64,000 bases of DNA. It comes from Acetobacterium woodii DSM 1030. Lineage in GTDB: Bacteria; Bacillota; Clostridia; Eubacteriales; Eubacteriaceae. Position numbers and translations under genes: made by a program. Shown here one piece after another: positions 36,617 through 54,891 of this stretch (positions are counted from its first letter, which is position 1; every line of letters starts with the position of its first letter). The stretch lies in the NCBI RefSeq assembly GCF_000247605.1, contig NC_016894.1, positions 3,647,732-3,711,731 of the forward strand, given 5' to 3'. A model generated the notes under the pieces. It was not told the DNA's origin, searched no databases, and saw only the letters and a list, made by a program, of their open reading frames with translations.

Positions 36617-36640
36617 AAAAAAGCCGCTATCACGGCTTTT
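36617..36640 (-). terminator. Terminator of the PPDK-like gene
   Basis: Stem AAAAGCCG / CGGCTTTT with loop CTATCA and six T on the minus strand, about 190 nt past the stop codon. Between here and the gene there is only an imperfect TTTTCCGATAAT/ATTATCGAAAA repeat (36648-36697) that recalls the dyads at 35580. Confidence 0.7.
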
Positions 36641-36830
36641 AATGTCGTTTTCCGATAATTTTCAGTTCAAACGGAAACTTTAATTCATTATCGAAAATCA
36701 AAAAACATTCACACAAACTTTAATCCTTGCGTTAAGTATAAAAGAGAATTTTGGTAATGTCAAATGACCTGATTTCAAATTCAGTTTGTTTACAGTTTCT
36801 GATCGCTCGTAAATTTAATCCTTGAGCACC

Positions 36831-39800
36831 TCAAATTGTTCCAATCTCATAATTTCCCTTATAAATATTTCCTAACCCGCCGTCAATGGATATGGGGTCT
36901 CCGGATTTAAAACGATAGCCATTGATGGTACATTCTTTGGTGGAATCGTTGACTTCCAACCCTTTGCATTTAACAATACAGACCTTACCAACGCTGGCGG
37001 CGGCTACTGCGGCATGGGATGTCACCCCGCCTTTGGCCGTAATCAGCCCATCACAAACAAAAATCAAGGGAATATCATCGGGTACCGTATCCGGTCGCAC
37101 CAGAATAATTTTAACTCCTGGATAATTGCGTTTTAATCCTTCCATATCAGCCATATCAAAGGCCAACAGCCCTGACAACACTTCGCTGCTCATGCCAATC
37201 CCATGTCCCACCAACTCCATTTCATTAGGTGTCGGCAAAAAACTGGAAAAAGAAGACTGTTTTTTGAGATTCTGGTTTCTGGTTTGAAGAATATATAAAT
37301 CCTCCGGGTTATCCGATTCAAAGGTAAATTCTATTTCCTGATGAACAAAGCCGTATTCTTCAATAAGTCGTCCGGCATAATGAATGAGCGCCTTATAAAT
37401 TTTCGGAAACCCCGACTCCAGCGACAAACTACTATCCCGATAATCACGTTTGCGCTGAGATTCGCTAATCGGCAAGGTATTCACCAATCCCGAAACCACA
37501 TCTTCGCCTTGACTACAAAGGGCAAAATCCCCATAGAGATTAATCCCGGCACAGCCATTAAAGGGACTGCTGGTAAAAACTACCCCGGTACCGGAGCGAT
37601 CTGAGCGGTTCCCCAAAACCATTTTTTGAACGACTACCGCAGTCCCCCAATCTTCGGCGATTTGAAGATGTTCTCGATAATAAACCGCACTTTTAGAAAA
37701 CCATGAGTCCAAAACTGAACGAATTGCCTGTTTTAATTGTTGAAACGGATCACTTTCAATTTCGATATTATAGTCCTGTAAGACCATTTTATAACGATAC
37801 GCAATCTTTTTCATTTGTTCCGGTGCAAAATTAATTTTCAGTTTTACGTGCCATTGTTGTTTATATTCCAGCATGACCCGGTCAAAAACGTCGCGGTCAA
37901 TGCCATAAGCCATTCCCCAACTTTGCAGAAAGCGTCGATAACAATCCCAGGCGGTCCAGCCATACCCCTCGCGTTTGCTATAGGCTTCGGCAATTTGATC
38001 ATTCATGCCGACATTTAAAAATGTTTTCATCGCTCCCGGAAGCGAAATCGATGAACCGGAACGAATCGAAAAAAACAAGGGATTTTCCGCTTTTCCAAAA
38101 CATTGACCCGTTATTGCTTCAATCACCGTTATATTTTTTTTAATCATCTGATCCATATCATGCATCATATCCGGATGACCTTCAATCGTTTCTTTGTGCC
38201 GGAATACCTCGGTGGTAATCACAAATCCCGGGGGCACATGAAATCCAAAGGCGATCAGTTTTTTCAAAAAATATGCCTTAGCCCCGAGAAAAACCGGGTT
38301 ATCGATTTCGGCCGTATTTTCGGTCAATAAGCTAAATGTAATATCCGGATCATAGGTCATCATGCTTTCAATAAAAGCACTGGAGTAATTTTTCATCATG
38401 CTTCTAAGTCCACTGATCGTATCGGTTATAAAATTATCCAGATCCTGAACCAAAAACGCCGTGGACAAATTATCCCGCAAAAATTTTTCCGATTCAATAT
38501 GATAAAATTTACGATCACTGGCCATTGTCACCTGTTTTGAAGCAAGAATCTGGGGAATAATGACTCGCATCGGGATCTCAAAAAGGTCAAAAAAGTATTC
38601 CCGGATAATTTGCTTAATATCATTCGCCATAAATTGAAAAATATTGATATACTGATGAATCGAAAAACTGGGCGAAGCCAACCCGAATTTAAGCATCTCC
38701 AGATGGGAGTTCAAACCCTGATTGTAAATCCCATCCAACTCCAGACCGTCTTTAAACAAAAGTAGAATTTGATGAATCTGCCGAAAAGTTTTAGCGGTGA
38801 TATATTCGGCATTAAAGGGCTGCGTAATCTGGGTCATCAGCTTGGCTGCGGTTCTTTCGAGCCGGTACATCAAACCCAACGCATCAAATTTAGGTTCCAC
38901 ATATTCGCCATACATAGACGGAATATCTGCCGCAATGTGCCGCTTATAATAAATGTTTTCCGAAGCTTTGCTGATACTGGGATCAAGAATAATCTGCTTT
39001 AAATGATTCATATGCTGATAAAGCTGACGAATCGAAGCTTCCTGATCATTCGCTTTCAGATTTTTTTTCAATTCTGTTAAATCTCCGGTAAGGTTAATAC
39101 TATAACCATTAAGCATGGCCAGCACATCGTCAAATTCAAAGGAATATTTTTCCAGCAATAACAAATAAACCTTAAAAATCAACAACACCCGTTTAGCATC
39201 GATGTTTTCCTCTGACCTAAAAGCATCTAAGCTGTCCCGAATCACCTCGATGTCCAGATGCATCAATTCCGCTAGTGAGCATTGCAATTCATGACATAGT
39301 TGTACCAAGGTTTGATGCGGTTTAATAAACCATTTGCTTTCTTTATCAAGATCATGATAGATTTCCTGAGGAATGATATCCTTGAGCGGTTCTTTATTGC
39401 CATCATACCAGTAGGTAATGATTTTCCGGGTCAGATCAATATGAGTATTGTTGCTTTCGATATGGATCTGTTTACGCATAAAATGAATCAGCCGATCTTT
39501 TCGCCGAGATGCTTCATCAATGGCAGTGGTTGCATCCCGCAATTCACCTTCGGCCCCAATTTCTCTAAAATACACCGGAAAAATCCGGGCCAACTGCTTG
39601 ATTTCCCGGTAAACCGGAGCAATATCACAATTTAGCAGCTTAGTAATATCCCGTTGAAAAAGATCGGTATCGGAAATAAAGATGCCGCCCAGTTTGAGGT
39701 TGACAATCAGTGCCGCCAACAGCTCCCGCATCGCGCGGGGATCTGCTTCAATTAACTCCAACCACACCCGAATATTTTTTACATGATTGGAATCGATAAG

Positions 39801-40916
39801 AATCTGCCAATCGGTATTGAGACTCATTTTTCCGGGATAATTAAAGCCCAGTTTAATCAGCTCTTTCGTAAAGTAATCAATATTAGCGGTATCCCCGGTG
39901 GCAATCAGTTCTTTGCCCAGAGTCAGCAGGCAATCTAATACCGTGTCTCCATGTTCACGATTAAGCTCCTTAAATTCGGCCATAATCGTGTTGATAAATT
40001 CAATAATATCTTCGGAATCCAATTCATCAAAAATATTTCGCAGGTTCCGATTGATATCATAAATCAGATGGTCATTCAAAGTTATCATCCCGGGCAAATG
40101 GAGCAGATAATATAAATAATAGATGGTTTCCAGATGCGTCGGAAATTTTTCTGAAAAACTGCGAAAATGATCGGCAATATCGTTATAATAACTTTGCTGT
40201 TTCAGGTCCGGCCAAGAAAGCGCCTGTTTTCTTTGCGCCCTAAGCCCCTCAAAATAAGAATGACCAATCTCCCGGATATCTTCCGCCTTCAGATGCGGAA
40301 ATAATTTTTGCCGGGAATCAAACCATTCATCCGCCAATGAAGTTTTATCCCAATAATCAATACACTGATCCAGCAACTTGGCAATCATTTCTTCTACCGT
40401 TGTCGTAAACTCCGGATATGTTACCACCTGATTAAAATAAATTTTAAAAAGACCGGAGTTTTTTATATACAGCAGTTCATGTAAAACCATATCCTCTTTT
40501 AAGAGCTCGAGACATTGAGAAATAATTGCGATGGGAACGTTTTCAAGTTTTGCCAAACGATCAATAAACCGAATCAATACCTGACTGAGCAAGGCCCGCT
40601 GACTGTCTTTTAGTTTAGAATGTAAAACCGACCGAATGATATCAACCAGTACTGAAAACGCCTGTTCCGATTCTTTGAGCGAATGGTACAGCCAGATATC
40701 ACCAAGACAAATGGTTTGTAGCGACTCAATGACGTATCGATTATTACGATACTTATGATTGAGTTCAATTAAAAATTCCTGGGTTCGTTTATGAATCCCC
40801 CAATAAGATTTTGATAATTCTGCGAACCACTGCTGCCTTTCCGGAATTGCAATGCTGGTTTCCCGGGTCTGATTAAGATTGGCTTCTAAAGCCTTGGAAG
40901 AAAACACGTTAGCCAT
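36831..40916 (-). CDS. Giant PPDK-like protein: helical N-terminus, ATP-grasp and phosphohistidine domains, no PEP barrel
   Basis: Protein of 1361 residues. Residues 1 to about 860 are helix-rich and match nothing I recognise. About 870-1220 is a PPDK/PEP synthase-type ATP-binding domain (FSIRSGSSISLPGAMKTFLN, VVVQKMVLGNRS). About 1255-1361 is a swivelling phosphohistidine domain with the catalytic His in GGVTSHAAVAAASVGK. The C-terminal PEP/pyruvate TIM barrel of PPDK is missing, so it cannot simply make PEP. The order recalls glucan-water dikinases and rifampin phosphotransferases, where the phosphate goes to another acceptor. GGGGG lies upstream of the ATG. It follows the CheW-like gene by 180 nt. 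Confidence 0.88.
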   Translation of the reverse strand: MANVFSSKALEANLNQTRETSIAIPERQQWFAELSKSYWGIHKRTQEFLIELNHKYRNNRYVIESLQTICLGDIWLYHSLKESEQAFSVLVDIIRSVLHSKLKDSQRALLSQVLIRFIDRLAKLENVPIAIISQCLELLKEDMVLHELLYIKNSGLFKIYFNQVVTYPEFTTTVEEMIAKLLDQCIDYWDKTSLADEWFDSRQKLFPHLKAEDIREIGHSYFEGLRAQRKQALSWPDLKQQSYYNDIADHFRSFSEKFPTHLETIYYLYYLLHLPGMITLNDHLIYDINRNLRNIFDELDSEDIIEFINTIMAEFKELNREHGDTVLDCLLTLGKELIATGDTANIDYFTKELIKLGFNYPGKMSLNTDWQILIDSNHVKNIRVWLELIEADPRAMRELLAALIVNLKLGGIFISDTDLFQRDITKLLNCDIAPVYREIKQLARIFPVYFREIGAEGELRDATTAIDEASRRKDRLIHFMRKQIHIESNNTHIDLTRKIITYWYDGNKEPLKDIIPQEIYHDLDKESKWFIKPHQTLVQLCHELQCSLAELMHLDIEVIRDSLDAFRSEENIDAKRVLLIFKVYLLLLEKYSFEFDDVLAMLNGYSINLTGDLTELKKNLKANDQEASIRQLYQHMNHLKQIILDPSISKASENIYYKRHIAADIPSMYGEYVEPKFDALGLMYRLERTAAKLMTQITQPFNAEYITAKTFRQIHQILLLFKDGLELDGIYNQGLNSHLEMLKFGLASPSFSIHQYINIFQFMANDIKQIIREYFFDLFEIPMRVIIPQILASKQVTMASDRKFYHIESEKFLRDNLSTAFLVQDLDNFITDTISGLRSMMKNYSSAFIESMMTYDPDITFSLLTENTAEIDNPVFLGAKAYFLKKLIAFGFHVPPGFVITTEVFRHKETIEGHPDMMHDMDQMIKKNITVIEAITGQCFGKAENPLFFSIRSGSSISLPGAMKTFLNVGMNDQIAEAYSKREGYGWTAWDCYRRFLQSWGMAYGIDRDVFDRVMLEYKQQWHVKLKINFAPEQMKKIAYRYKMVLQDYNIEIESDPFQQLKQAIRSVLDSWFSKSAVYYREHLQIAEDWGTAVVVQKMVLGNRSDRSGTGVVFTSSPFNGCAGINLYGDFALCSQGEDVVSGLVNTLPISESQRKRDYRDSSLSLESGFPKIYKALIHYAGRLIEEYGFVHQEIEFTFESDNPEDLYILQTRNQNLKKQSSFSSFLPTPNEMELVGHGIGMSSEVLSGLLAFDMADMEGLKRNYPGVKIILVRPDTVPDDIPLIFVCDGLITAKGGVTSHAAVAAASVGKVCIVKCKGLEVNDSTKECTINGYRFKSGDPISIDGGLGNIYKGNYEIGTI

Positions 40917-41095
40917 ATAATGATCCCCCTGATTTCAATCGATTTGGGCAAATGTTGGCTTTACCTTTTGATCAGTATACCATAATCGTCTGCCAAAATG
41001 AACCGAGATTTGTATCTTCATTTAATGTGCTAAAAAAAGTCCCTTCGTTTTTTCGCTGCTGGATACTAACCGGGCGACCCGCTTTTACATAAATT

Positions 41096-43651
41096 TTATT
41101 CAATTCTTTCAATCAGGGGTAAAACGACTGCCAAATCATCTTCAAGATGCTGCTCAAACAATTTTTCCAACAAAACCTGCGGGTCTATTTCCAGAATAGT
41201 TCGGTTAGAATCCCCGGTTAAGCAGATGATTCCGCTGATAGCAGCGGAAATTTCCACTGGCTGAATATCCTTTAAATTAATTTCTAAAATACTCCCCAAA
41301 CTTTCGACTTGAATAGCAATCATTTCCTCTTCCGATAATTGCAGCATTAGTAGATTGGAAACGACCTGATTCACGCGATGATCATCAAAAAGCGCCAAAA
41401 TATCAACAACCGCATAATATTGATTATTAAACTCCGTCACTCCACGAATAATCGGGCTCGTCTCGGGAACCGAAATCATTTTGTTTCCTTCCAGAGCCTC
41501 AATCACATATGATTGCTCCAATCCATAAATCTGACCATTGATCGCAAAGGTTGCCAGTTTTTTTTGGTCATATTTCATTGAAAGTGAAATATCAGATTGT
41601 TCTATTTCATAAGTCTCCTTTTTTTTCGATCGAACTTCCTGATAATCTGCTATTTTTTCAAACATCAAAGCAATTACAGCGTTGTCATAACCATCCGTTC
41701 TTTTGTATTCCCGATAACCGGATGAACAGGCATAACCAACCGAATAATAACTATTTTTATAAACCAGTACTTCTGACTGTGCTTTGCCATTCGCTATTGC
41801 AAACAATTTATCTGACAGATTAAGGGCTTTCCCAACCGTAATCGCTTCGTTTGTTGAAGCAATCACTCTTTTCTTGCGATCGGTAAAAACAGCAAATGCT
41901 TCCCGTTCGGTATTAAGCGATTCCTTTAGCATCGTTTCAAATTGAGCCGCACTATCAAAAACAATCCCAATCCCGCCAACTGTTTGATTATTATTTATAT
42001 CAATAATTGAAGCCCCATATATATATGTCTGTTGATTGTCATATAGCTCCGTTTTTTCAAAGGGCGAAACAAAGTATTTTTCCCGACTTGTGTTCGCTAA
42101 AATATCGGTTATATATGGTTGTGACAACTGTTTGCCAATATCTTCCAGCCGCTCCGGATTGGAAACCGCAATAATGACACCGGTTTTATCAAAAACAAAT
42201 AAATTGCTGTAAACCGTATATAGCGCATTAATACCGCTTAAAATATCCGTCAATCTTTGTTGATCATCAACGCTTAATTCAGTCTTTGACAAAATCCCGC
42301 GAATAGTCGAATCCAAAGCCCACCACCGGCAGTCGTTCGCTCGTTCATATAAATTGCGGTCCATAATCTCAACGTTGAGGGCGGCCAGAAAGCTGGTATT
42401 ATCGAGACTGGTTGCGATCACTGTCTGAAACAGATTTGCCACAGAACTCTGGAATATATTTGTCCCCATTCGTCCTAAGGCTCTCAAAATCGGTGTCAAT
42501 CGAGCATGTTCAACATCAACACGGCTGTCAGCTTTACCCATAATCTGTCCATTATAAACAATCCGCTTGAGGGCGTGATTGATCGTCTGAATTTCATTGA
42601 CAATTTCATTTAGTTCTTGCGAGAAAGAATCGGCTTGTTGCATAAGTTCCACAGCGATGGTCGAATCCAAGTTGGCAAGATTTGTATTCTCGCCAAAAGC
42701 TAGCTTAAGCGGTAACATGACGTGACCGCGCCACCCCAGCCCAAAATAATTTTGGTAGCCTTTTGTCATCACCGTTTTTGCTATATACCTTGAACCGCAA
42801 TAATAGACGATCTGATTTTGCCCGGATTCGACCGCTTCGATCGCAATCCCTATTGGCACGTGGTTTTTATTACTGCTGGCAATTACGTTATTTTTATCAT
42901 CAATAATTGTAATGATCGCCGCCTCATCATCGTCGGTCAGTTTTTCAAGAATTTGACTCATTTCATCTTCAAACCGAAAACATAAACAAATCAGTCCAAT
43001 TACCCGGGAACTTCCCTCGCTATAGATGCGACTGGAAAAAACATGCGATTTTTTATTTCCGTATTGCAGTTTCGACTGTTCATAATATTCAAGGTAACTT
43101 TGTTCTCCGTTCATACTTCTGATCAGGTTTTGATCTTTGATCTTTTTGCCTAAGATTTTATTTTTTTCATCAAGATTTGCCAATACCTGATATTGTGTAT
43201 CCAAAACAATAATATCTTCATAAACAGAATATTTTGCCACATATTCATGCATCCGACTTAATATTGTCCTAAGGTCACTTTCGCTGCGCTCTTCATTTTC
43301 GACAAAACGGCAAATCTCGCTATCGGTGGCTAAAAATCCGATATCAGCGGTTCGTTCAAAAAGATTTCGAATTAAAATATCAATCGCAACCTGAGTTTTG
43401 GAAACAATTTTCTGCTCCATTTTTTTTAATTTTTCAAGGATCAGCGCCTCAATCAGCTCCTGTTTTAAAGCCACCACACTTTTTTGAATTTTGATCATAT
43501 TCGGAAGAACTTGCAATGATTGCCGCGGACAATTGATTTCGGTCAACAGTTTAATCTCATTCCATTGCTCATCCATTTTCGAAATACTTTCATTACATTC
43601 CTGAACATCCGACATGTAGGTAAGAAAATCACTTTGTTTATAGGTCATCAT
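41096..43651 (-). CDS. Soluble double-Cache protein with C-terminal CheW domain
   Basis: Protein of 851 residues without membrane helices. Two Cache-like sensor modules can be seen, each introduced by a related helix (NLFERTADIGFLATDSEICR near 112; DRNLYERANDCRWWALDSTI near 430) and each with an LVFDK/IIVLD-type sheet. Residues about 705-845 are a CheW domain (KLATFAINGQIYGLEQSYVI, PIIRGVTEFNNQYYAVVDIL). CheW couples receptors to CheA, so this may be a cytoplasmic receptor or adaptor for chemotaxis or a related pathway. Two consecutive ATG codons lie 13 nt after AGGAGG, a rather long spacing. It lies between the ABC ATPase gene and the PPDK-like gene. Confidence 0.87.
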   Translation of the reverse strand: MMTYKQSDFLTYMSDVQECNESISKMDEQWNEIKLLTEINCPRQSLQVLPNMIKIQKSVVALKQELIEALILEKLKKMEQKIVSKTQVAIDILIRNLFERTADIGFLATDSEICRFVENEERSESDLRTILSRMHEYVAKYSVYEDIIVLDTQYQVLANLDEKNKILGKKIKDQNLIRSMNGEQSYLEYYEQSKLQYGNKKSHVFSSRIYSEGSSRVIGLICLCFRFEDEMSQILEKLTDDDEAAIITIIDDKNNVIASSNKNHVPIGIAIEAVESGQNQIVYYCGSRYIAKTVMTKGYQNYFGLGWRGHVMLPLKLAFGENTNLANLDSTIAVELMQQADSFSQELNEIVNEIQTINHALKRIVYNGQIMGKADSRVDVEHARLTPILRALGRMGTNIFQSSVANLFQTVIATSLDNTSFLAALNVEIMDRNLYERANDCRWWALDSTIRGILSKTELSVDDQQRLTDILSGINALYTVYSNLFVFDKTGVIIAVSNPERLEDIGKQLSQPYITDILANTSREKYFVSPFEKTELYDNQQTYIYGASIIDINNNQTVGGIGIVFDSAAQFETMLKESLNTEREAFAVFTDRKKRVIASTNEAITVGKALNLSDKLFAIANGKAQSEVLVYKNSYYSVGYACSSGYREYKRTDGYDNAVIALMFEKIADYQEVRSKKKETYEIEQSDISLSMKYDQKKLATFAINGQIYGLEQSYVIEALEGNKMISVPETSPIIRGVTEFNNQYYAVVDILALFDDHRVNQVVSNLLMLQLSEEEMIAIQVESLGSILEINLKDIQPVEISAAISGIICLTGDSNRTILEIDPQVLLEKLFEQHLEDDLAVVLPLIERIE

Positions 43652-43734
43652 TATTATCTTATTTCCTCCTATAACGGTTACTGGTTGATAACCAATACTA
43701 CCACGAACAGCATTATTCGATCCACTCTTTTTGA

Positions 43735-44814
43735 TTAAATGACGATTTTTATGTAATTTTTCCCATCCTTATTTTCGATTGCTAAACTTTTTGCATAAGC
43801 ATGAATGATCGCCAGCGATATCTGGTTTTCTTCCGCTTTTTCGAGCTCATAAGTTTCGCCTTCAAAACTTACCTGAATCGTAACTTCACCGCTCAAGTCC
43901 GAATACTCAATCAGCAACGAAACCGTCGCCTTAGGAAAAGCGCGAAGCAAGATCGCTAACACCAGTTCTTCACAAACTAACTGAACATTCATAATCTGAC
44001 GCTCAGTAAACATCTGTTTTTTGAGGAAATCCTCAATTTTGGCATTAAATTCGTATAAGTCAAACCCTTTGCCATCAGCAATATATTCAAAGGACGAAAT
44101 TTTTCTGATAAATGCCCGCGTCCTGGGTTTTTGCGGGTGATCAAAAATTTCTGTCGGGGTGCCATCTTCGTAGATTCCCTTTTCATCCATATAAAACACC
44201 CGACTGGAGACATCTCGGGCAAATTTCATTTCATGCGTGACAATCATCATCGTCATTCCCGTTGCCGCCAGTTTGCGAATCACCCCCAAGACCTCGCTGA
44301 CCATGGTCGGATCGAGTGCCGAAGTCGGTTCATCAAATAACACGATTTCCGGTTTCATTGCCAGTGTTCTGGCAATCGCCGCCCGTTGTTTCTGCCCCCC
44401 CGACAACTCGTCAGGAAAAGCCAGCGCTTTAGCACGAAGCCCCACCATTTCAAGATATTGCAACCCTTCGTCATAGGCCTGTTGGCGGGGAACTTTCAGC
44501 AAATTGACCGGTCCCAGCATCAAGTTTTCAATGATCATGAGGTGAGAAAATAAATTAAATGACTGGAAAACCATTCCCATTTTCTGACGCAGTCCCGAGA
44601 CATCAGCATTTTTAGCCGAAATGTTTTGTCCATCAATCACGATCTCGCCTTTTGTTGGCGTTTCAAGCAGGTTGATACAACGCAAAAAAGTTGATTTGCC
44701 GCAACCTGAAGGCCCTATGATCGAAATTACTTCGCCTTCTTTTATCTCGGTGCTGATATTTTCCAACACGCTTAGCTCCCCGAATTGCTTATATAAGCCG
44801 TTAATTGCGATCAT
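43735..44814 (-). CDS. Amino-acid ABC ATPase with RsbW-like C-terminal domain
   Basis: Protein of 359 residues. The first 245 are a GlnQ-type ATPase: Walker A GPSGCGKST, signature LSGGQKQR, Walker [15 protein letters not shown]-loop VTHEM. The last 110 resemble a histidine-kinase-like ATPase of the RsbW/SpoIIAB type: an N-box-like NVQLVCEELVLAILLRAF and a terminal strand pattern DGKNYIKIVI. The N-box Asn is replaced by Ala and no clear G-box is seen, so this tail is probably not an active kinase but a binding module. ATGA overlap with the permease fusion shows tight coupling. Inferred role: linking transporter activity to a partner-switching or two-domain signal. Confidence 0.88.
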   Translation of the reverse strand: MIAINGLYKQFGELSVLENISTEIKEGEVISIIGPSGCGKSTFLRCINLLETPTKGEIVIDGQNISAKNADVSGLRQKMGMVFQSFNLFSHLMIIENLMLGPVNLLKVPRQQAYDEGLQYLEMVGLRAKALAFPDELSGGQKQRAAIARTLAMKPEIVLFDEPTSALDPTMVSEVLGVIRKLAATGMTMMIVTHEMKFARDVSSRVFYMDEKGIYEDGTPTEIFDHPQKPRTRAFIRKISSFEYIADGKGFDLYEFNAKIEDFLKKQMFTERQIMNVQLVCEELVLAILLRAFPKATVSLLIEYSDLSGEVTIQVSFEGETYELEKAEENQISLAIIHAYAKSLAIENKDGKNYIKIVI

Positions 44815-47102
44815 TTCAGCACCTCCATCACACTATTTTCAGAATCAGTAATCCCTTTGACTACCCGTTTGCGACGTTTGGGATCAACCTGAACTTCGAC
44901 TTTTCCCAGTACAAAAATAAACAGATAAGTAATCACAAAATAGATAAAGGCTGTCACAAACAACGGAAAAAAGGCATCAAAGGTACGACTTCTGATGATA
45001 TCGGTCATTTTGGTTAAATCCTGAATGGCAATGTAGCCAACCACCGAGGTCATTTTTACCATACTGATAAATTCACCTTTAAAAATCGGCAGAATATGCC
45101 GGAGCGCCTGGGGCAAGGTGACCTTAAAAAAGCTGGATATCTTGGTAAACCCCAACGCATAAGCGGCTTCCAGTTGTCCTTTGTCGGTCGCATCGATGGC
45201 CGTCCTAAAAATCTCTGCCGAATAGGCCGCAAAGTTAATTGAAAAACCCACCACTGCAATAAGGATCGGATCAATATCCACCGCAGCAAAGATAATATAA
45301 TATAGAATCATCAGGTTTAAAACAATCGGAACCCCTTGAATCAGCCGAATATAAACAATAGCAAAGCCAGATACGATTTTAAACCGGGACTTTCGCATAG
45401 CGCAGATCAAAGCCCCTAAGATGCTGCCAAATAAAAGCGAGAGCAACGAAATGACAATCGTTGTCCAAAGTCCTTCTAAAACCAGCTTATACCGATCTTC
45501 AACAATAAAGGTTTTGTTAAAGCTCTCTTGTAATGAAGCAAAAAAGCCGCCAATAGCCGAAGTCTTCGCAGCTGTACTGCCGGTATAAGCTTTGTTTTGA
45601 ACAATCGCGACGGCACTATCTGCTTCTATCGGCGTCAGGAACCTGATTGACTCGGCTCTTTCGGGTGTGTAGGCCAAATAAAAGGCCAGATCAATCTTAC
45701 CTGAAGTAATACTGGGAATAATCGCCGAAAAATCCATCGCTTTAACGTCTAAATTCATCCCCAGTTGTGAAGCGAGTATTCTGGCCAGATCTACTTCCAG
45801 TCCGACCAATTCATTATCTTTATAATAGGAATAGGGATAGTCATCCCCCAAAACCCCAGCCACAAGCGTGCCATTTCCGCCCGTCAGTGTTACCGGGGTC
45901 AAAACCTTTGCGGTCTCATCGCTGCCCATCCATTTTTCAGTTAAGGCCGTCAATGAACCATCGGCAATCATACGCTTCACTACCACATCGAGTTTATCAC
46001 CCAGTTCGGTATTTGTTTTGCTCACTCCAATCGAAGCTGAATTATCGGCATAAGGAGGTAACGCAATCAAATCCGGATTTTGTTCAACAATCTCCGCCAC
46101 CTTGGACTGACTGGTCAGAAAGGCATCAATTTTATTTGATTTCAAAGCTTCCAGCATTGCTGAAGAATCGTTATATTCATATTCATCAGCACTATAAAGC
46201 GGCCGAAAGTTATCGATATAGACCATGCCGGTAATGAAACCGACCCGTTTTCCGTTGAGCTCATCGTTCGATGTAATCGTACCTGCGGTCGTTTCGGCAT
46301 TTCCGGCATACATCGTTTTTCGGATCATCACACTATTGTGAAGTACCACATAAGCATCACTATAAAGCACTTCCTGTCCCCGTTCATCGGTTTTAAAAAA
46401 GTCCGAGATGATGATATCCCCTTTACCGCTTTGCAAGGCTGGAATCATTGCCGAATAATCCATCGTGATAATTTCATAATCAATGTTGGCATAATTGGCA
46501 AACCGCTTTATAAACTCAATATCATAACCAGTCAATACGCCATTTTCATAATAATTCATCGGTTCGGTCATGCCATTGGTAATAATCGTCAGTTTTTTTT
46601 CCGGATTTTGTGGTTTCGGGATATCCGGCATCACTCCGCCGATGTTATCAATCCAGCGGGTAACCATTTCGTCGGCTGTACCATCGGCATGAAGTTGCTT
46701 AATAAAAGCATTGATCTGATCGTTCAGATCAGTACTATTTAGCCTCACCACCGTAGCGATTTCAATATTCCCTAGTTGATCAGGTAATTTAACCAAATCC
46801 GGGTTACTCAGGAGAATTCGGTCAACTCCGGAGCTGTCATAAATAGCCGCTGTCGCCTTGCCGCTTTTGAGAGCCGCCACGCCGTCAATAAACTGGGTGA
46901 AATAAGAAATTTCGGCTTTAGGCATATACTCTTTAGCCACTTCTTCCGGCGGCGTTCCTTCAGGAACACCGATAATATAACCAGCCTGATTTAAATCGCT
47001 GGCGCTGCTGATTTTTGCTTCGTCCGCAGCTGAACAACCACCAATCAAAAACATCACCGCAATCGCTAATAGTAGTGTTAAAATTCGTTTTTTATTTAGC
47101 AT
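44811..47102 (-). CDS. Lipoprotein with lobe-permuted tandem substrate-binding domains fused to ABC permease
   Basis: Protein of 763 residues. After a lipobox (IGGC, Cys23) the SBP family 3 half-domains run lobe 2 (about 35-152), lobe 1 (about 167-262; NGMTEPMNYYENGVLTGYDI), lobe 2 (about 275-400; GKRVGFITG, DGSLTALTEKWMG), lobe 1 (about 408-505; DDYPYSYYKDNELVGLEVDL). A HisM-type permease follows (about 540-745; EAAYALGFTKISSFFKVTLPQ is the ATPase contact). A normal SBP reads lobe 1 then lobe 2. GGAGG lies 6 nt before the ATG, which overlaps the previous gene by 11 nt. Probably a receptor-like importer for amino-acid or peptide ligands, partnered by the ATPase downstream. Confidence 0.88.
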   Translation of the reverse strand: MLNKKRILTLLLAIAVMFLIGGCSAADEAKISSASDLNQAGYIIGVPEGTPPEEVAKEYMPKAEISYFTQFIDGVAALKSGKATAAIYDSSGVDRILLSNPDLVKLPDQLGNIEIATVVRLNSTDLNDQINAFIKQLHADGTADEMVTRWIDNIGGVMPDIPKPQNPEKKLTIITNGMTEPMNYYENGVLTGYDIEFIKRFANYANIDYEIITMDYSAMIPALQSGKGDIIISDFFKTDERGQEVLYSDAYVVLHNSVMIRKTMYAGNAETTAGTITSNDELNGKRVGFITGMVYIDNFRPLYSADEYEYNDSSAMLEALKSNKIDAFLTSQSKVAEIVEQNPDLIALPPYADNSASIGVSKTNTELGDKLDVVVKRMIADGSLTALTEKWMGSDETAKVLTPVTLTGGNGTLVAGVLGDDYPYSYYKDNELVGLEVDLARILASQLGMNLDVKAMDFSAIIPSITSGKIDLAFYLAYTPERAESIRFLTPIEADSAVAIVQNKAYTGSTAAKTSAIGGFFASLQESFNKTFIVEDRYKLVLEGLWTTIVISLLSLLFGSILGALICAMRKSRFKIVSGFAIVYIRLIQGVPIVLNLMILYYIIFAAVDIDPILIAVVGFSINFAAYSAEIFRTAIDATDKGQLEAAYALGFTKISSFFKVTLPQALRHILPIFKGEFISMVKMTSVVGYIAIQDLTKMTDIIRSRTFDAFFPLFVTAFIYFVITYLFIFVLGKVEVQVDPKRRKRVVKGITDSENSVMEVLK

Positions 47103-47919
47103 TGTCAGCCTCCTCCAGGCGGTCTTTTTTCACCACAAATACCTGTGGATTAGGAAAATAGCCTTTTGTAAATTCGACCCGCTGAGCTCTTTCGGGCGTA
47201 TTATACATAGCGGCGATCACATCACTTTTACCGGACTGAAGACTGTCTATCATGGCTGCAAAATCCATATCCTGATATTCAGTTCGCATGCCCAGTTCAA
47301 AAGCGATTCGGTCCATCAATTCCACATTCATGCCGGTGATTTTGCCGTCTTTCACAAAACAACGCGGTTCGGTCAACGCTGTTACGGCAACATTCAATAC
47401 TGGGCCGCTGGTATTTTTAGGAACATCGATGATTTCATAATCCTCACCCGTTTCTGGAAACCAGTGGGCGATGATTTCGTCCATGGTGCCATCACTTAAA
47501 AAGCGGTTTAGAACGGTATTGATTTTTTGATTCAACTCGGTGTTTTCTTTATTCAGAGCCATCGCCGTTACCTCCTCGGTTAAGGGGTCCGGTAAAATGA
47601 CAACTTGATCATTATTCTTCAGATAGTTTTTTGCCGATGCATAATCCATAATGGCATAGTCAACTTTTCCCGCCATCAATGCCGCCGACTCATCCACATA
47701 ATCATTGAAACGGCTGATTTTCGCATCGGGATATTTTTCCGGGGCCATAATCTCACTGACTGTGCCAATCATCGTTCCGATCTTCGCCGTTTCAACCGAT
47801 GGCAACGTCGTTGCCGTCTGGCTGCATCCGGTCAGTGCTACTAAAATAAGTGCCATGGTACTTACAATCGCTTTTTTCATGAATGGCTTCCAACTCTTGT
47901 CATATAATTTTCCGTTCAT
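47092..47919 (-). CDS. Lobe-permuted substrate-binding lipoprotein
   Basis: Protein of 275 residues from the ATG at 47919, which has GGAGAG upstream; an in-frame ATG at 47967 would overlap the peptide gene. The signal ends in a lipobox ALTGC. The mature part reads lobe 2 first (about 40-150; IGTMIGTVSEIMAP, DGTMDEIIAHWFPE) then lobe 1 (about 165-265; TEPRCFVKDGKITGMNVELM, TPERAQRVEFTKGYF). This is the reverse of the classical order seen at 1.7-2.5 kb. It lies between the double-glycine peptide and the fused importer, so binding of that peptide or a related amino acid is an attractive inference. Confidence 0.86.
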   Translation of the reverse strand: MNGKLYDKSWKPFMKKAIVSTMALILVALTGCSQTATTLPSVETAKIGTMIGTVSEIMAPEKYPDAKISRFNDYVDESAALMAGKVDYAIMDYASAKNYLKNNDQVVILPDPLTEEVTAMALNKENTELNQKINTVLNRFLSDGTMDEIIAHWFPETGEDYEIIDVPKNTSGPVLNVAVTALTEPRCFVKDGKITGMNVELMDRIAFELGMRTEYQDMDFAAMIDSLQSGKSDVIAAMYNTPERAQRVEFTKGYFPNPQVFVVKKDRLEEADNAK

Positions 47920-47957
47920 TTCTCTCCGCTCTTCCACAGTTTTATTGCGATTTTCCT

Positions 47958-48146
47958 TCATAAACAATTGGTAGTCATGTCACTACCATACTGGCAGTCT
48001 CCACATGGTGGCTCTGTCATATTTTTATAGGGACACTCCTGCTGACAAATCGACCCAATAAGTAAACTTCGCTCCATACCACCGGTTATCTTTTCTAAAT
48101 CTTCATCCGCCAGTCCAACTACTTTTGTTGCTAATTTGTCGTTCAT
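47958..48146 (-). CDS. Double-glycine leader peptide, Cys-rich (putative RiPP or signal peptide precursor)
   Basis: Precursor-like peptide of 62 residues. The leader KVVGLADEDLEKITGG (about 8-23) has the pattern (L/A)DEDLEK..GG cleaved by C39-peptidase exporters. The predicted 39-residue core has five cysteines (SICQQEC, EPPCGDCQYG, TTNCL). An excellent ribosome site AGAAGGAGA precedes the ATG. It heads the cluster of permuted binding proteins and importer. No C39 exporter, LanM or radical SAM enzyme is in the window. It could be a bacteriocin, a quorum signal, or a modified peptide; the neighbouring importer favours a sensed signal. Confidence 0.78.
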   Translation of the reverse strand: MNDKLATKVVGLADEDLEKITGGMERSLLIGSICQQECPYKNMTEPPCGDCQYGSDMTTNCL

Positions 48147-48162
48147 TTTTTCTCCTTCTTTA

Positions 48163-48265: not shown

Positions 48266-48768
48266 TTTTTTTGAGATTATTTTATCATTTAATCAATCAT
48301 AAATAAATCACCGTTATCAATTTTTCCCGAATTTACTACCATTAGATTTTATTTCAAGTACCTGCTCACAACAAAACCAAAGCCAGGTACGTGTCGTTAC
48401 CTGGCGTCTCCATCGACTTTTAAAAATTAAATTAGAACCTTCATTTTTAGTTAATAATGATTAACATCGCCATTCATATAGGTTACCGTCTGACAATCAT
48501 CTTTAAATCATCACCGTTATAACGCTGCTAATATGATCTTTATCCCCGGATACGTTTTATTTGAGATCTATTCTTTCGATCAATCTCAAAAATCTTTATG
48601 AATGATTAATTTTATCATTTATATTGAAAATAAAAAATCACCCGAGGGTGATTTTTTAACAATAAAATTTTATTTTGTAACATCGATTAAGTATTTTTGA
48701 TAACCTTGTCCAACCGTTAGTTTATCCTTTATTGCAACCACCAAATTAATACGCAACTAAATTATTAC
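48266..48768. other. Non-coding stretch with hairpins between divergent operons
   Basis: No credible gene. A perfect 8 bp hairpin GCCAGGTA / TACCTGGC with 8 nt loop lies at 48382-48405. A strong terminator-like stem AAAAAATCACCC / GGGTGATTTTTT with a 2 nt centre lies at 48632-48657, which can work in both directions. Their presence suggests a short RNA or long leader here, but no promoter was found with confidence. No riboswitch class was recognised. Confidence 0.5.
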
Positions 48769-48797
48769 TTGATTCTCGCGATTGAGATTGATATAAT
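48769..48797 (+). promoter_or_regulatory. Promoter of the second MalT-like gene
   Basis: TTGATT (48769-48774), 17 nt spacer and perfect TATAAT (48792-48797). Transcription should start near 48804, leaving a short leader before GAAAGGG and the GTG start. Confidence 0.8.
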
Positions 48798-48826
48798 ACT
48801 CAAAAATTACAGAAAGGGTTTTTATC

Positions 48827-51394
48827 GTGGGGATTAACTTTTTAAATGATAAATTCAGGTGTCCGCCACTACCTGATATCTGCGTATCTCGGCGAGAACT
48901 TTTCAAGCATTACAATAAAGCCGCTAAAACCCGTCTAGCAGCGGTTTGCGCCCCTGCCGGCTACGGCAAAACAGTCTCTGTATTGCTCTGGGCTAAAATG
49001 ACAAAACAAAAAGTTGTTTGGATTGGACTGGATAAATATGATAATGCTCTTGCTTCATTTTATAATCTTTTTTGCACCGGCATTATTTCAACCCAGCCTG
49101 ACAATTATCATATGCAAAATGTGCTGTTAAGCAATACTTTCAACGCCACCCCCGTCGACCATACCATCAACCTGCTATCAAAGTATGCTCACAGCGAAAA
49201 TTCCTATACCCTTATTCTTGATGATTTTCACACCATCACCAATCCTGAAATTATCGAAACGCTCCCCTATATTTTAACCCGATTGCCTTATTCCTTTACG
49301 ACTCTGATTCTCAGCCGCGGCCAAATTTTTGACAATTTAATTGACTTTATCAAAAAACGAAATGCTGAACTCATCACAACCGAACAGCTGGCCTTTTCCG
49401 CCACTGAAATCCAAAAATATTACCGTCACTTTGATTACCAACTGAATCAGGAACAAGCCCAGATGATCCTAAAAAAAACCGATGGTTGGGCCATTGGCAT
49501 TGTGGCCCTCTCAGTCTCTAATCCGCTTGAAAAAATTCTAACCAATGATCAGTTTATCAATGATTACATCACCTGTAATATCTGGAATAAATGGAGCCCT
49601 GAATTTCAGCAAACCATGCTTGTCACCGCTGTTCCCGATGAGTTGGATCCAGAGTTTTTTGGGTTCCTCACCGGTCAAACAAAACCAGCTGAGATTTTGG
49701 AACAGCTGATCCATCAAAATGCCTTTATTATTCGCACCCCCAAGAACACCTATCGCTATTATCACTTTTTTTTAGCTTTTTTACGAACGAAGCTTGCCGA
49801 ACATCCGCATATCGATGTTCGTTCTCTTAATCTCATGACGGCTGATCATTACTTTGAGCGACAGGATTTTTTTTCGGCTCTGGATTACTATATCCGTGCC
49901 GAACACCTTGATGGTATCAATCGATCTTTTTATCTGTTAAATACCCTCTTTATGGATTACAGTGTTGCCGAATGGCTCTATCAGTTTACTAATCTTGTCC
50001 AGGATCACCTGTCCGAAGACGTGATTCAAAACGATCCCCCCCTGCTGGTTGAATACGCCTGGGCGAATTTTCTAAACGGAAATGCCGAAGCCACCCTACG
50101 TTATATTGATCGAATCAATGCCTGCCTTACCGAAGCCGAACATTTAGCTACTATTCGTGAAAGCAACTTGCTTGGCAGTATCAGTATAATTCGCTTTGCC
50201 GATTTTCGCCAAGATATCTGGACTTACGCAATGGACTTTTCTAAGTTAGCTCACCTCTTGCCTGAAGACCATGCCGTTAAACTGTATTCTCCTTCAATCA
50301 CCCAGAATTTTCCCATCATGCATCGTTCCATCTTTGATTGCCTCGAAATTATCCCCGACCTGGATAATCGATTGCAGTTAATCAAAGATGCCTTTGGCCT
50401 GTTCTTTCCCCAGGACGTCGACCTTTTTTGCCTTTGCGTCAAGGCTGGTCTTTATTATGAACTCAACAACCTTGAAAGTGCCTATAAAACCATTGGATTG
50501 ACGCAAAAATTACTTAAAAAAGACACGCGCTTTGAAATGCAGTTCTGTGTATCAATGATCTTGTCTTTGATATTAAATGCGATGGATAAAAAATGTGCCT
50601 CCGAAAGTACGCGCAAAAATTTCAGTCTGCAAATTCAAACCACCAATGGCCAATACCTCTATCCTAATTTTAGCGCTATTGATATTAAACAACGGCTCTG
50701 GGATGCTGATCGCAACGCCGCTCAGCTTTGGCTTGAGGAATCATTTGTCACTATTGATCAACCGCTTCGTTTTTATAAAATATATCAATATTTTACTACC
50801 GCCCGGGCTTACATTGTTCTCTCAAAAAAGGCTGAGGCACAAAAGCTACTTAAGCAGCTTAAGAAACTGAGTGCCGATTACCACCGTCCTCTTGACCTCG
50901 CCGAAACCAATATCTTAAAAGCGATACTGGAATGGAGCACGGGATCGAAAAAAATGGCTCTCCAAACCCTTGAAGACGTTTTGATTGCACTTCAACCTTA
51001 CCGAGCGATTCGAATTATTGCTGAAGAAGGTGCTTCGGTCCTACCGATCCTAAAAAAACTTACCACAAAAACCAGTCAGCCAGATTATCAGGGCCCTCTG
51101 GAGCCGCATTATCTGAAACAGGTCTACTTGTGTGCCTATCAAGTTTCAAAAAAACATCTCGGTATTACCGCTCACCTCAATGAACAATCCGTTAAACTTT
51201 CAAAACAACAAAAATATATCCTGGCTTTGTTAGTCGAAGGATATAGTCCTGCCGAAATTGTGAATCTAACCGGGAGAACCATCAACACCGTCAAATCACA
51301 TATAAAGATACTCTATCTAAAACTTGATGTCCACAACGCCGCCGATGCCGTTTTAAAAGCCCAACAATTAGGGCTTCTCGAATCATTGATTTAG
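48827..51394 (+). CDS. MalT-like LuxR family ATP-dependent regulator (LAL type)
   Basis: Regulator of 855 residues. The NTPase P-loop APAGYGKT lies at 42-49, with YTLILDDFH as Walker B. A helical repeat region follows, and the C-terminal LuxR HTH covers about 792-850 (KLSKQQKYILALLVEGYSPA, TINTVKSHIKILYLKL). The start is a GTG with GAAAGGG upstream. It is divergent from the peptide/importer cluster and adjacent to the partner-switching operon, so it is a candidate activator of either. It shares layout with the protein at 10.5-13.0 kb but little recognisable sequence. Confidence 0.93.
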   Translation: MGINFLNDKFRCPPLPDICVSRRELFKHYNKAAKTRLAAVCAPAGYGKTVSVLLWAKMTKQKVVWIGLDKYDNALASFYNLFCTGIISTQPDNYHMQNVLLSNTFNATPVDHTINLLSKYAHSENSYTLILDDFHTITNPEIIETLPYILTRLPYSFTTLILSRGQIFDNLIDFIKKRNAELITTEQLAFSATEIQKYYRHFDYQLNQEQAQMILKKTDGWAIGIVALSVSNPLEKILTNDQFINDYITCNIWNKWSPEFQQTMLVTAVPDELDPEFFGFLTGQTKPAEILEQLIHQNAFIIRTPKNTYRYYHFFLAFLRTKLAEHPHIDVRSLNLMTADHYFERQDFFSALDYYIRAEHLDGINRSFYLLNTLFMDYSVAEWLYQFTNLVQDHLSEDVIQNDPPLLVEYAWANFLNGNAEATLRYIDRINACLTEAEHLATIRESNLLGSISIIRFADFRQDIWTYAMDFSKLAHLLPEDHAVKLYSPSITQNFPIMHRSIFDCLEIIPDLDNRLQLIKDAFGLFFPQDVDLFCLCVKAGLYYELNNLESAYKTIGLTQKLLKKDTRFEMQFCVSMILSLILNAMDKKCASESTRKNFSLQIQTTNGQYLYPNFSAIDIKQRLWDADRNAAQLWLEESFVTIDQPLRFYKIYQYFTTARAYIVLSKKAEAQKLLKQLKKLSADYHRPLDLAETNILKAILEWSTGSKKMALQTLEDVLIALQPYRAIRIIAEEGASVLPILKKLTTKTSQPDYQGPLEPHYLKQVYLCAYQVSKKHLGITAHLNEQSVKLSKQQKYILALLVEGYSPAEIVNLTGRTINTVKSHIKILYLKLDVHNAADAVLKAQQLGLLESLI

Positions 51395-51474: not shown

Positions 51475-51703
51475 CCTTATTCCAGTTAGGATAAGGATTG
51501 AGGTTGTCGATAAACGACCGTACCAACCAATTGTTAATCTGTTGTATGCACGCAATTCGTACAGTTGCAATCAAAGCTTTAGCTGAAGATAACCTTTTCG
51601 CGGCAACTGTTCGCCTTGAGGCACACAACATGATCGAACAATTGTCGGTACTACGTTATCTTTTTTGACAGTCTGAACCCTTATTCCGGTTAGGATAAGG
51701 ATT
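51475..51703 (-). repeat. Terminator-inserted foldback element, family 1, copy B
   Basis: The 179 bp element (51500-51678) is flanked by a 25 bp direct repeat (51475-51499 and 51679-51703, 24 of 25 identical). The right repeat contains the last codons and stop of the RsbW-like gene; the left repeat is followed on the minus strand by T6. So the element entered that gene's terminator hairpin and duplicated it. Two stem positions differ from copy A in a compensating way (ACAGTTGC/GCAACTGT versus ACAGTTAC/GTAACTGT, and TGTATGC versus TGCATGC with its partner). Nothing else is seen in 51395-51689. Confidence 0.88.
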
Positions 51704-52100
51704 TTTTGATTGTCAGAATATTTTTATTTTTTTCAAAGCGATAGTCCACCTCATCCATGCTCTTTTTAACCATCAACACCCCCAGGCCTCCGATTTCCCG
51801 TTCTTCTGCCGTCAAGGTGATATCCGGTTCCGGATTATCAAGCGGATTAAAGGGATTCCCCTGATCAATAAACTGAATCTCTACCAGCGGCGGATCGCCA
51901 TAGGAATCAAATTGAATAATAACATTACCATCATCCGGCGTATAAGCATAATGAGCAATGTTTACATAAATTTCCTCCACCGCAAGATCAATCTGAAATA
52001 TCATTTTCATACTGGCTCCCGCGGTCTCCAATTCGGTATCAATAAACTCCAGTACCTTAGGCAGGTTATCCGTCGAGGCGTTAACAGTCAATTTTTTCAT
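51690..52100 (-). CDS. RsbW/SpoIIAB-like anti-sigma factor kinase
   Basis: Serine kinase-type ATPase of 136 residues. The N-box VEEIYVNIAHYAY, the DQGNPFNPL segment and the G-box GGLGVLMVKKSMDEVDY are intact, so ATP binding is likely. Such proteins bind a sigma factor or other target and phosphorylate a STAS antagonist; the SpoIIE-type phosphatase in the same operon would reverse that. No STAS gene or sigma factor lies in the window. It is the last gene of the operon and its 3' end was duplicated by a foldback insertion. AAGGAG precedes the ATG. Confidence 0.9.
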   Translation of the reverse strand: MKKLTVNASTDNLPKVLEFIDTELETAGASMKMIFQIDLAVEEIYVNIAHYAYTPDDGNVIIQFDSYGDPPLVEIQFIDQGNPFNPLDNPEPDITLTAEEREIGGLGVLMVKKSMDEVDYRFEKNKNILTIKKSLS

Positions 52101-53253: not shown

Positions 53254-54876
53254 CTACTCCTCAAACTTAAATCCGAGCATAGTAATATCATCAAACTGCG
53301 GTTCGGTATCTGCAAATTGATCGACGTCCGCTAATATATCGGCACATAATGATTTGATATCATGTTTTTCTTTTGACGCAACTAATGCCGTTAAACGATC
53401 CAGTCCATAAAATTCACTTTTGGTATTATTTGCTTCTGGAATACCATCAGTATAAAGATAAATGATGTCACCTTTTTCAATTTTCGACTCGTTCATTTTA
53501 TATTTGGCTGTTTCCATCCCGGCACAGACAAATCCTTTTTTCCCGGTAAGCAGTTCAACCGAGCCATCTTTTTTCCAGATAATCGCCGGGTCATGGCCAG
53601 CATCACACCATTGGAAGACACCGGTTTTGACATTGATAATGGCAATTAGTAAAGTCACAAACATCCCTTGTTCATTATTTCGACACAAATTGACATTTGC
53701 TTCAGTCATAACCTCGTCAACCGGCAATCGTCTCAGTACCAGATCTTTAACTGTTGCTTTGGCCATCGCCATAAATAACGCCGCCGGAACCCCTTTACCA
53801 GAGACATCTCCGATGGTAATACAGAAATGGTCGTCATCAACAAAGAAAAAGTCGTAAAAATCACCGCCCACATCTTTTGCTGCCCGCATCGATGCATAAA
53901 GCGTAAATTCATTTCTATCCGGGTATTCAAAATTCCGGGGTAACATCCCTTCTTGAATCAGAGTCGCAATTCGCAGCTCGGTTTCAATTCGCTCCCGCTC
54001 AGAGGTCACACTGGTAAGTTCGTTGATATAGCGGATGATATCGCTGGTCATTTTATTAAACGCCTCAGCCAGAATTTCAATTTCATCACCGGTTTTTACG
54101 TCAATATTCATAGCCACAATCTGACCCAAGTTTTCATCCAAGTTGGTGTTAACAAAATCCGTCGCGTTATCAACAATAACCTGCAGCGGATCAATAATCG
54201 ATCGGTTAAGGAAAAGTAAATAGGTGCTAATAAATAAAATAAAAATCAACGCTGCAATCGAAGAAACCAGCATAATATAAGTATTTAGGGTTTGATTAAT
54301 ATCCTGCATCGACATATCTGCCCCAACAACCAGCAGTGGCTGGCCTTGATCATCATAAATGACATCAAAGGCGGAAATTAAATAACCAAACTCGCTATCA
54401 TTTGTAATATAGGTTTTCGGCGCCTCGGGATTAGCAAAGAGATTATTTGCTGAATCGATATCTTTCTGGGGATAATAATCAGTGCCTAAAAAATTGCCCA
54501 ACACAAAATGTCCTTCATCTCCGGGTTTCGTCCCTTGTGCAAAAACGGTTAACCCATCCGCGGTGGGCACATAGGCGTACAGATATTTAAGGCCGTTTTG
54601 TTCCTGAATAATTTGAAATTGTTCAACCAGACGATCATAATCGGCGTCAGTTTGAAGCGTTTCTAAATACTGATTCACCTTATCATCCGGTACTAACGCC
54701 GCCGCTGTATGAACCAGTGATGAAATATTGTTATCATACCGTTTAAACATTTGATCACGGTAACTGAAATAGGAGATTAAGACGATAATCACACACAATA
54801 AAATTGCCAGAATCATGCTTGCCGATGCAAATTTTGTTTTTAGGCTAATTCTTCTAATACTTTTTGGTTCTTTCAT
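53254..54876 (-). CDS. SpoIIE-type PP2C phosphatase with extracellular sensor and HAMP
   Basis: Membrane phosphatase of 540 residues. Helix 1 (about 20-40) and helix 2 (about 200-222) bracket an external Cache-like sensor domain (YLYAYVPTADGLTVFAQG). HAMP and a short coiled-coil (about 225-300) lead to the PP2C domain (about 310-540) with AKDVGGDFYDFF, IGDVSGKGVPAALFMA, DAGHDP and DDITMLGF, all metal-site Asp residues present. It probably dephosphorylates a STAS protein, opposing the RsbW-like kinase. The start at 54876 has AAGGTGG 5 nt upstream. It lies 15 nt after the MATE fusion. Confidence 0.92.
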   Translation of the reverse strand: MKEPKSIRRISLKTKFASASMILAILLCVIIVLISYFSYRDQMFKRYDNNISSLVHTAAALVPDDKVNQYLETLQTDADYDRLVEQFQIIQEQNGLKYLYAYVPTADGLTVFAQGTKPGDEGHFVLGNFLGTDYYPQKDIDSANNLFANPEAPKTYITNDSEFGYLISAFDVIYDDQGQPLLVVGADMSMQDINQTLNTYIMLVSSIAALIFILFISTYLLFLNRSIIDPLQVIVDNATDFVNTNLDENLGQIVAMNIDVKTGDEIEILAEAFNKMTSDIIRYINELTSVTSERERIETELRIATLIQEGMLPRNFEYPDRNEFTLYASMRAAKDVGGDFYDFFFVDDDHFCITIGDVSGKGVPAALFMAMAKATVKDLVLRRLPVDEVMTEANVNLCRNNEQGMFVTLLIAIINVKTGVFQWCDAGHDPAIIWKKDGSVELLTGKKGFVCAGMETAKYKMNESKIEKGDIIYLYTDGIPEANNTKSEFYGLDRLTALVASKEKHDIKSLCADILADVDQFADTEPQFDDITMLGFKFEE

Positions 54877-54891
54877 AAATGCCACCTTGTT

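Follow-up and report, generated by a model that had tools for sequence, protein, structure and literature searches.

The window analyzed here is a stretch of 64,000 nucleotides from the genome of Acetobacterium woodii DSM 1030, an anaerobe that feeds on gas (a single contig of 4,044,777 bases), and it contains a gene for a small double-glycine, Cys-rich peptide that lies between a divergent MalT-like regulator gene and an importer operon. Comparison with related genomes suggests that the regulator, the peptide, and an NHLM exporter encoded ~230 kilobases (kb) away act as one exported-peptide system placed ahead of an older importer operon, a reading to which we assign a probability of roughly 0.6. 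The core of the peptide is most likely an extracellular signal or a competition factor. An earlier note on this DNA had joined the peptide gene, the importer genes, a Cache-CheW gene, and a dikinase-like gene into a single peptide-sensing cluster; that cluster is a composite of an old importer operon and a newer peptide cassette. The genus comparison used 19 Acetobacterium genomes (the window genome, G000, among them), the second peptide-bearing species being A. paludosum DSM 8237 (G017). Gene order around the importer was inspected in each of the 13 other congeners that carry it, and the wider survey covered 391 genomes of the same class, with 388 genomes used for co-occurrence tests outside the genus. 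The two genes of the system that lie in the window are as follows.

47958..48146, minus strand: double-glycine peptide gene (62 amino acids; 23-residue leader and 39-residue core)
48827..51394, plus strand: MalT-like regulator gene (TPR_MalT, LuxR-type helix-turn-helix), found in 2 of the 19 congeners

The double-glycine, five-Cys peptide gene is present as first described: the 23-residue leader ends in Gly-Gly, and the 39-residue core holds five Cys residues. At the DNA level, its core motif is present at a single place in the window, and 100 shuffles gave no occurrence. The peptide shares 40% identity with a 69-residue peptide of A. paludosum, and both peptides have a double-glycine leader as well as the pattern C-x2-E-C-P-Y-x6-P-C-x2-C, while the fifth Cys of the A. 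woodii core is absent from the homologue. Intact copies were found in 2 of the 41 genomes searched, both Acetobacterium (2 of the 19 congeners), and when 84,980 species, each represented by one genome, were searched for exact matches to the DNA motif, A. paludosum alone was returned (the window's own record is possibly absent from that set). A profile search of the 391 class genomes recovered the window genome and one weak match with an internal stop (E 6.3e-4), which was dropped. The A. paludosum peptide matched the CTB family alone in NCBIfam, at 18.1 bits against a cut-off of 32. The predicted fold of the leader transcript (z -1.95) was not used as evidence.

The regulator, which the earlier note placed opposite the peptide gene, exists and lies beyond the span 36831-48146 given there for the cluster. 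It exceeds the Pfam cut-offs for TPR_MalT (64 bits against 45) and GerE (28.5 against 23.5), and falls below that of the MalT equivalog (199.7 of 537 bits). At E 1e-40 it is found in 2 of the 19 congeners, A. woodii and A. paludosum, and the proposed tie between peptide and MalT-like gene is supported by this co-inheritance and by the divergent region that they share. Outside the genus, genomes with relatives of the regulator carry an NHLM exporter in 3 of 4 cases, compared with 16 of 384 others (Fisher p 0.0004); this test was picked post hoc and two of the regulator genomes come from one genus, so that it is given little weight. In the regulator regions L233-L236, neither an NHLM exporter nor a Cys-rich double-glycine peptide was seen on the regulator's side.

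The exporter of A. woodii is encoded at ~3,924.6-3,929.5 kb of the contig, ~230 kb from the peptide gene at 3,695.7 kb. NHLM exporter families are described in Haft et al. 2010 (PMC2887384). Both ATP-binding cassette subunits exceed the curated cut-offs, ABC1 (which carries the leader peptidase) at 917.8 bits against 853.3 and ABC2 at 728.3 against 709.4, and the A. paludosum subunits exceed the same cut-offs (939.1 and 721.6 bits). While relatives of ABC1 are present at E 1e-60 in 16 of the 19 congeners, the close kind (76% identity) is confined to A. woodii and A. paludosum, and the relatives in the remaining congeners share 42% identity or less. Consequently, the same 2 of 19 congeners carry the peptide, the regulator, and the 76%-identical exporter. 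The A. woodii exporter genes are followed by genes for two further double-glycine, Cys-rich peptides, one of them homologous to a 105-residue peptide of A. paludosum. A gene for a STAS-domain protein (L107:5980-6279, minus strand), a possible partner for RsbW-like proteins, is located close to the exporter genes and the two peptide genes behind them; no homologue of this gene was found among the other loci compared.

A common promoter element connects the two distant A. woodii loci with the A. paludosum cassette. In the divergent region of the window, the following sites are seen (distances in base pairs, bp).

48609..48651, minus strand: promoter P1 toward the peptide gene, TCACCC-N3-G-GTGATTT, 17 bp, TGATAAAAT; its palindrome spans 48637-48652
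48279..48312, minus strand: promoter P2, half-site GGTGATTT, 17 bp, TGATAAAAT
48780..48799, plus strand: 20-bp stretch shared without change with A. paludosum, which includes the -10 of the MalT-like gene's likely promoter

The element, TCACMC-N3-K-GTGATTT followed after exactly 17 bp by TGNTAAWAT, precedes the A. woodii peptide gene, the distant exporter genes, and the A. paludosum cassette. When up to three mismatches were allowed, the full site gave 13 matches in the 19 genomes (3 exact, none at one or two mismatches, and 10 at three), and the reversed pattern gave 1. Since this pattern was derived from its own three sites, a second was built with the exporter site left out, from the two sites on the peptide side. 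The exporter site agrees with this pattern at 23 of the 28 positions that those two sites share; among 247,664 43-mers taken from four stretches of A. woodii DNA, the next best score is 19, and none of 574 segments of 215 bp reaches 23. The half-site version precedes the A. woodii peptide gene and the A. paludosum exporter genes, and otherwise matches only P1 of the window in 1.68 megabases of overlapping loci. By hand count, the center of the palindrome lies ~42 bp before the expected transcript start. Class II sites of LuxR-type regulators lie ~42 bp before the start as well, and the palindrome is a putative site for the MalT-like protein. It is very improbable that the palindrome is an ordinary terminator or the site of some other regulator, with peptide and exporter not belonging to one regulon. 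The palindrome can form a hairpin followed by a T tract, and a terminator scan lists the minus strand at 48658-48631; however, it lies between divergent genes and exactly 17 bp from an extended -10 at three sites, the A. paludosum palindrome is continuous, and among the 19 genomes the full site is exact only at these operons.

The second species shows the system in a compact form. The A. paludosum locus consists of the divergent regulator gene followed by genes for a 105-residue zinc-ribbon-like peptide with a double-glycine leader, a short HlyD-like protein, ABC1, ABC2, and the peptide, after which come a one-unit binding-permease protein, an ATPase with a tail, and an operon that we take to be ZnuABC/Fur-like. 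The adjacency of peptide and importer thus recurs in A. paludosum, where the surrounding genes differ, and the proposal that the peptide is secreted is supported by an NHLM exporter that adjoins it in that species and would act in trans in A. woodii, as well as by the common promoter element. The full gene order of the earlier cluster is not conserved in congeners; the part comprising regulator, peptide, importer, and ATPase recurs once, in A. paludosum. The cluster as one conserved unit was rejected, as the congener importer loci include the Cache-CheW gene in 0 of 13 cases, the dikinase-like gene in 10 of 13, the regulator with an intact peptide in 1 of 13 (A. paludosum), and a peptide remnant in 1 of 13.

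Scars at two loci show that pieces of the cassette are being lost in both lineages. In A. woodii, 680 bp separate the peptide gene from the regulator gene, and two features lie within this interval.

48451..48495, minus strand: remnant of a 105-residue zinc-ribbon-like peptide gene (last 14 codons and stop; 35 of 45 bases matched)
48382..48405, minus strand: terminator-like hairpin resembling the one behind the A. paludosum 105-residue peptide gene

The match of the remnant to the A. paludosum gene compares with 28 bases for the best of 1000 shuffles. Because this 3' remnant and a similar hairpin remain, the A. woodii locus must once have had the 105-residue peptide; any action of the A. woodii exporter would now be in trans. 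A close relative of A. paludosum (G013), whose importer protein is 97% identical, has lost the regulator and exporter from the site and retains the peptide as a leaderless remnant before the importer. The possibility that the cassette was cleanly inserted in A. paludosum, with G013 representing the empty site, was rejected, as the peptide remnant at the G013 site indicates loss. The joint loss of regulator, exporter, and peptide with the importer retained is a further sign that the three belong together.

In a rival reading, the core is a bacteriocin or other competition peptide, with the regulator driving production and the importer merely a neighboring operon; we regard this as possible and give it some, though limited, credence. 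NHLM exporters have been described for bacteriocin-like products (PMC2887384), several double-glycine peptides use one exporter, and the distribution is patchy with visible decay. An immunity gene was not recognized, however, nor was a modification enzyme among the neighbors read, and the peptide is kept before the same importer in two species. The core could also be a secreted metal binder, in that C-x3-C-x9-C-x2-C resembles a zinc knuckle and the other cassette peptides are zinc-ribbon-like. These peptides give zinc-ribbon-like matches that fall under the Pfam cut-offs, and in other Clostridia, Cys-pair peptides are encoded next to exporter relatives (L218:12989-13654, L215:10803-11159, L225:4804-5034, and L224:17151-17414), most with a double-glycine leader and several zinc-ribbon-like in appearance (judged without a family test). 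The presumed ZnuABC/Fur-like operon behind the importer in A. paludosum fits such a role, yet it also stands behind the importer in a genome without the cassette, and none was observed next to the A. woodii importer; we consider metal binding unlikely. This operon (L071:14081-17200 and L137) lies directly 3' of the importer in both A. paludosum and G013.

The importer behind the peptide gene is encoded by three genes of the window.

47092..47880, minus strand: lipoprotein binding protein with one permuted family-3 unit (older importer)
44811..47102, minus strand: permease with two fused, permuted binding units (older importer), in 14 of the 19 congeners
43735..44814, minus strand: importer ATPase with a degenerate RsbW-like tail (approximately residues 240-359)

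The lipoprotein starts at 47880 (MKKAIVST...) and has the lipobox LTGC; the overlap of its gene with the peptide gene that was claimed earlier depends on a doubtful TTG start, and the lipoprotein start leaves a gap of ~77 bp. The binding proteins are indeed permuted, the C-terminal half of SBP_bac_3 being matched before the N-terminal half. The number of units varies, with one in A. paludosum and one plus two in the window, and the importer proteins of the congeners range from 544 to 997 residues. A T-x-E-R motif is retained in all four aligned binding units and an Asp in three of them, which we take to be the amino-acid site of family-3 binding proteins, and the closest chains of known structure come mostly from amino-acid binding proteins.

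These features bear on the proposal of an import-based quorum-sensing loop, in which the lipoproteins would capture the core for re-import or sensing and feed the RsbW-like tail and the MalT-like activator. The peptide gene stands directly before the importer in two species with different gene contexts, and the importer has a signaling-type tail. Set against this are the presumed signature for free amino acids (T-x-E-R in four of four units, Asp in three of four), the solved relatives, and the lack of an intact peptide in 12 of the 14 genomes with the binding-permease protein, and such a loop seems improbable. Because the binding units keep the amino-acid signature, re-import, one of the two options in the earlier note, is unlikely for the whole 39-residue core.

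The RsbW-like tail of the ATPase, also noted earlier, is weak when a single sequence is considered (E 0.021 against HATPase_c_2, below the Pfam cut-off, and 0.14 for the A. paludosum tail) and is supported when a diverse set of tails is used (hhalign E 2.6e-5, probability 75%). A comparison of tails from close relatives with the RsbW-like neighbors was without support (probability 1.7%, E 0.029). The N-box Asn and the glycine box are ATP-site motifs of RsbW-type kinases. Among 12 aligned tails this Asn is present in 2 (L191 and L193), while the window tail has Ala; the glycine box is replaced. Tails are present in 12 of the 391 class genomes, two of these in Acetobacterium, and ten tail regions from 8 of the other 10 genomes comprise 6 two-gene pairs, 3 single fused proteins, and 1 fragment at a contig end. 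The complete arrangements in distant Clostridia are as follows.

L193:7609-10359, L194:5562-8552, L197:5653-8385: fused importer-tail proteins
L188, L189, L191, L192, L195, L196: two-gene importer-tail pairs

A BLAST relative of the SpoIIE-type phosphatase occurs in 4 of the 10 tail regions (L188, L193, L194, and L197), and Pfam SpoIIE was confirmed in both regions checked, L194 and L197. Outside the genus, an exporter is present in 3 of 10 genomes with a tail-importer compared with 16 of 378 others (Fisher p 0.0096), a test picked after the data were seen and given little weight.

Taken together, the exported-peptide reading suggests the following mechanism. On some cue, the regulator would activate the peptide and exporter promoters through the common palindrome centered near -42. 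The exporter would then cut the leader at Gly-Gly and secrete the ~39-residue core, probably without enzymatic modification; in A. woodii we infer that the exporter also carries the 62-residue peptide in trans. As the peptide gene heads the amino-acid importer operon, read-through into the importer genes would mean that peptide output and importer level likely rise together. The importer would take up or sense an amino acid, and its tail, which probably serves as a domain for binding or reporting within partner switching, would report to the adjacent SpoIIE-phosphatase/RsbW switch. A bolder version, in which a secreted zinc-finger-like peptide controlled by a MalT-type activator works with an importer-sensor whose tail relays binding events to the SpoIIE/RsbW switch, is put forward tentatively and is doubtful; if true, the importer with its tail would represent a class of partner-switching receptor coupled to a transporter that has drawn little notice, and the peptide would be an input specific to this lineage.

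Several observations weigh against the exported-peptide system as proposed. Only two species carry the cassette, and the A. woodii exporter is not adjacent to the peptide gene; its own two double-glycine peptides may be its true or main cargo. The HlyD-like subunits miss the TIGR03794 cut-off (42.5 and 52.2 of 156.2 bits) and are short, at 163 and 160 residues compared with a 421-position model. The window peptide has no match in NCBIfam at E 0.001 and fits no NHLP/Nif11 leader family at the family cut-off. The assignment of the palindrome to the MalT-like protein is putative and draws on promoter geometry and co-occurrence. Since an inverted repeat and a promoter-like site separate peptide and importer in A. 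paludosum, their co-transcription in that species is doubtful. Structure predictions were too poor for use, both for the permuted binding protein (4 sequences, mean predicted local distance difference test score 52.4) and for the ATPase with its tail (2 sequences, 43.4).

The remaining genes of the region can be assigned to an older block or to a local addition.

53254..54885, minus strand: SpoIIE-type phosphatase with HAMP domain (older block; 17 of the 19 congeners carry the phosphatase)
51690..52100, minus strand: RsbW-like protein (older block)
41096..43651, minus strand: soluble dCache-CheW protein of 851 residues (local addition, apparently not part of the peptide system)
36831..40916, minus strand: dikinase-like protein of 1361 residues (older importer block, apparently not the peptide cassette)

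By gene order, the phosphatase gene, the RsbW-like gene, the importer genes, and the dikinase-like gene make up the older block. The phosphatase and RsbW-like genes are among the upstream neighbors in 10 of the 13 congener importer loci, and the dikinase-like gene is 3' of the importer in 10 of 13, a different ten. In the window, the regulator and peptide genes lie between the RsbW-like gene and the binding-protein gene, and the Cache-CheW gene lies between the ATPase and dikinase-like genes. An Rfam scan of the window at 36000-52500 gave no match.

Both downstream proteins exist as the earlier note reported, and neither is supported as a member of a peptide cluster; of what was proposed there, support was obtained for secretion of the peptide, its tie to the MalT-like gene, and its adjacency to the importer. 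The dikinase-like protein contains PPDK_N and PEP-utilizers domains, the phosphoenolpyruvate/pyruvate barrel was not found by Pfam, and it scores 360.6 of 843.45 bits against the pyruvate phosphate dikinase equivalog. It is present at full length in 16 of the 19 congeners; the 10 loci that have its gene lack peptide and regulator, and the A. paludosum copy is located elsewhere. The first ~870 residues match no Pfam family at E 0.001, ahead of the C-terminal ATP-grasp and phospho-His domains. The Cache-CheW protein combines a dCache with a CheW domain, and its Kyte-Doolittle hydropathy, taken over 19 residues, nowhere exceeds 1.6. None of the 13 congener importer loci has its gene next to the importer, and the family is found in 18 of the 19 congeners and in 0 of 42 other genomes searched. 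A. woodii has two copies that are 67% identical, one in the window (41096-43651) and one at G000:C1:2510534-2513089.

A second NHLM exporter locus is located at ~468-480 kb of the contig (L108:2027-14100) and holds three B12-binding radical SAM proteins, a Peripla_BP_6 binding protein, and an HlyD-like protein. This is probably the Acetobacterium bacteriocin cluster with radical SAM proteins reported in PMC6925170, which is distinct from the present cassette. Within the titles and opening lines of abstracts of the literature on NHLP bacteriocins and leader peptides, Acetobacterium bacteriocins and quorum sensing, and importer-RsbW fusions, the cassette is not described, and the available parts of PMC8407422 and PMC9930230 contain nothing on it. 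The present analysis offers a testable regulon in a model acetogen, in which one regulator and one palindrome would serve peptide and exporter operons 230 kb apart, and it corrects a reading in which adjoining functions looked like a single pathway. The importer with the RsbW-like tail represents an older module, found again in other Clostridia and in some cases close to SpoIIE-type phosphatases, and it would link nutrient uptake to partner switching.

Comparison with known systems places each part beside a familiar relative. Similar to NHLM/NHLP systems (TIGR03794, TIGR03796, TIGR03797), both species have a pair of ABC subunits, of which one carries a leader peptidase, and double-glycine precursors beside the exporter; in contrast to these systems, the precursors reach the cut-off of no NHLP/Nif11 leader family, the HlyD-like subunit is short and below its cut-off, no modification enzyme was recognized, and a MalT-type regulator has its own palindrome. 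The regulator shares with the large MalT/LuxR activators the MalT-like ATPase and tetratricopeptide repeat regions, the LuxR-type helix-turn-helix, and a palindrome at the position of a class II activator site, whereas its likely targets are the peptide and exporter operons rather than maltose genes. GlnPQ-type systems are polar amino-acid importers with fused binding domains; the importer resembles them in having family-3 binding domains fused to a permease and a GlnQ-like ATPase, and differs in that its units are circularly permuted, their number varies among congeners, and the ATPase carries the RsbW-like tail. As in RsbW/SpoIIE partner switching, a SpoIIE-type phosphatase gene and an RsbW-like kinase gene lie near the importer and the tail is of similar fold, but the tail has mostly lost the ATP-site motifs and is fused to a transporter ATPase. 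GrrP (TIGR04262) is an orphan binding protein associated with GRRM peptide systems. The pairing of a family-3 binding protein with a small peptide system is common to both, although the score here is 65.2 of 190 bits, no radical SAM enzyme was recognized, and the binding protein is accompanied by its permease and ATPase.

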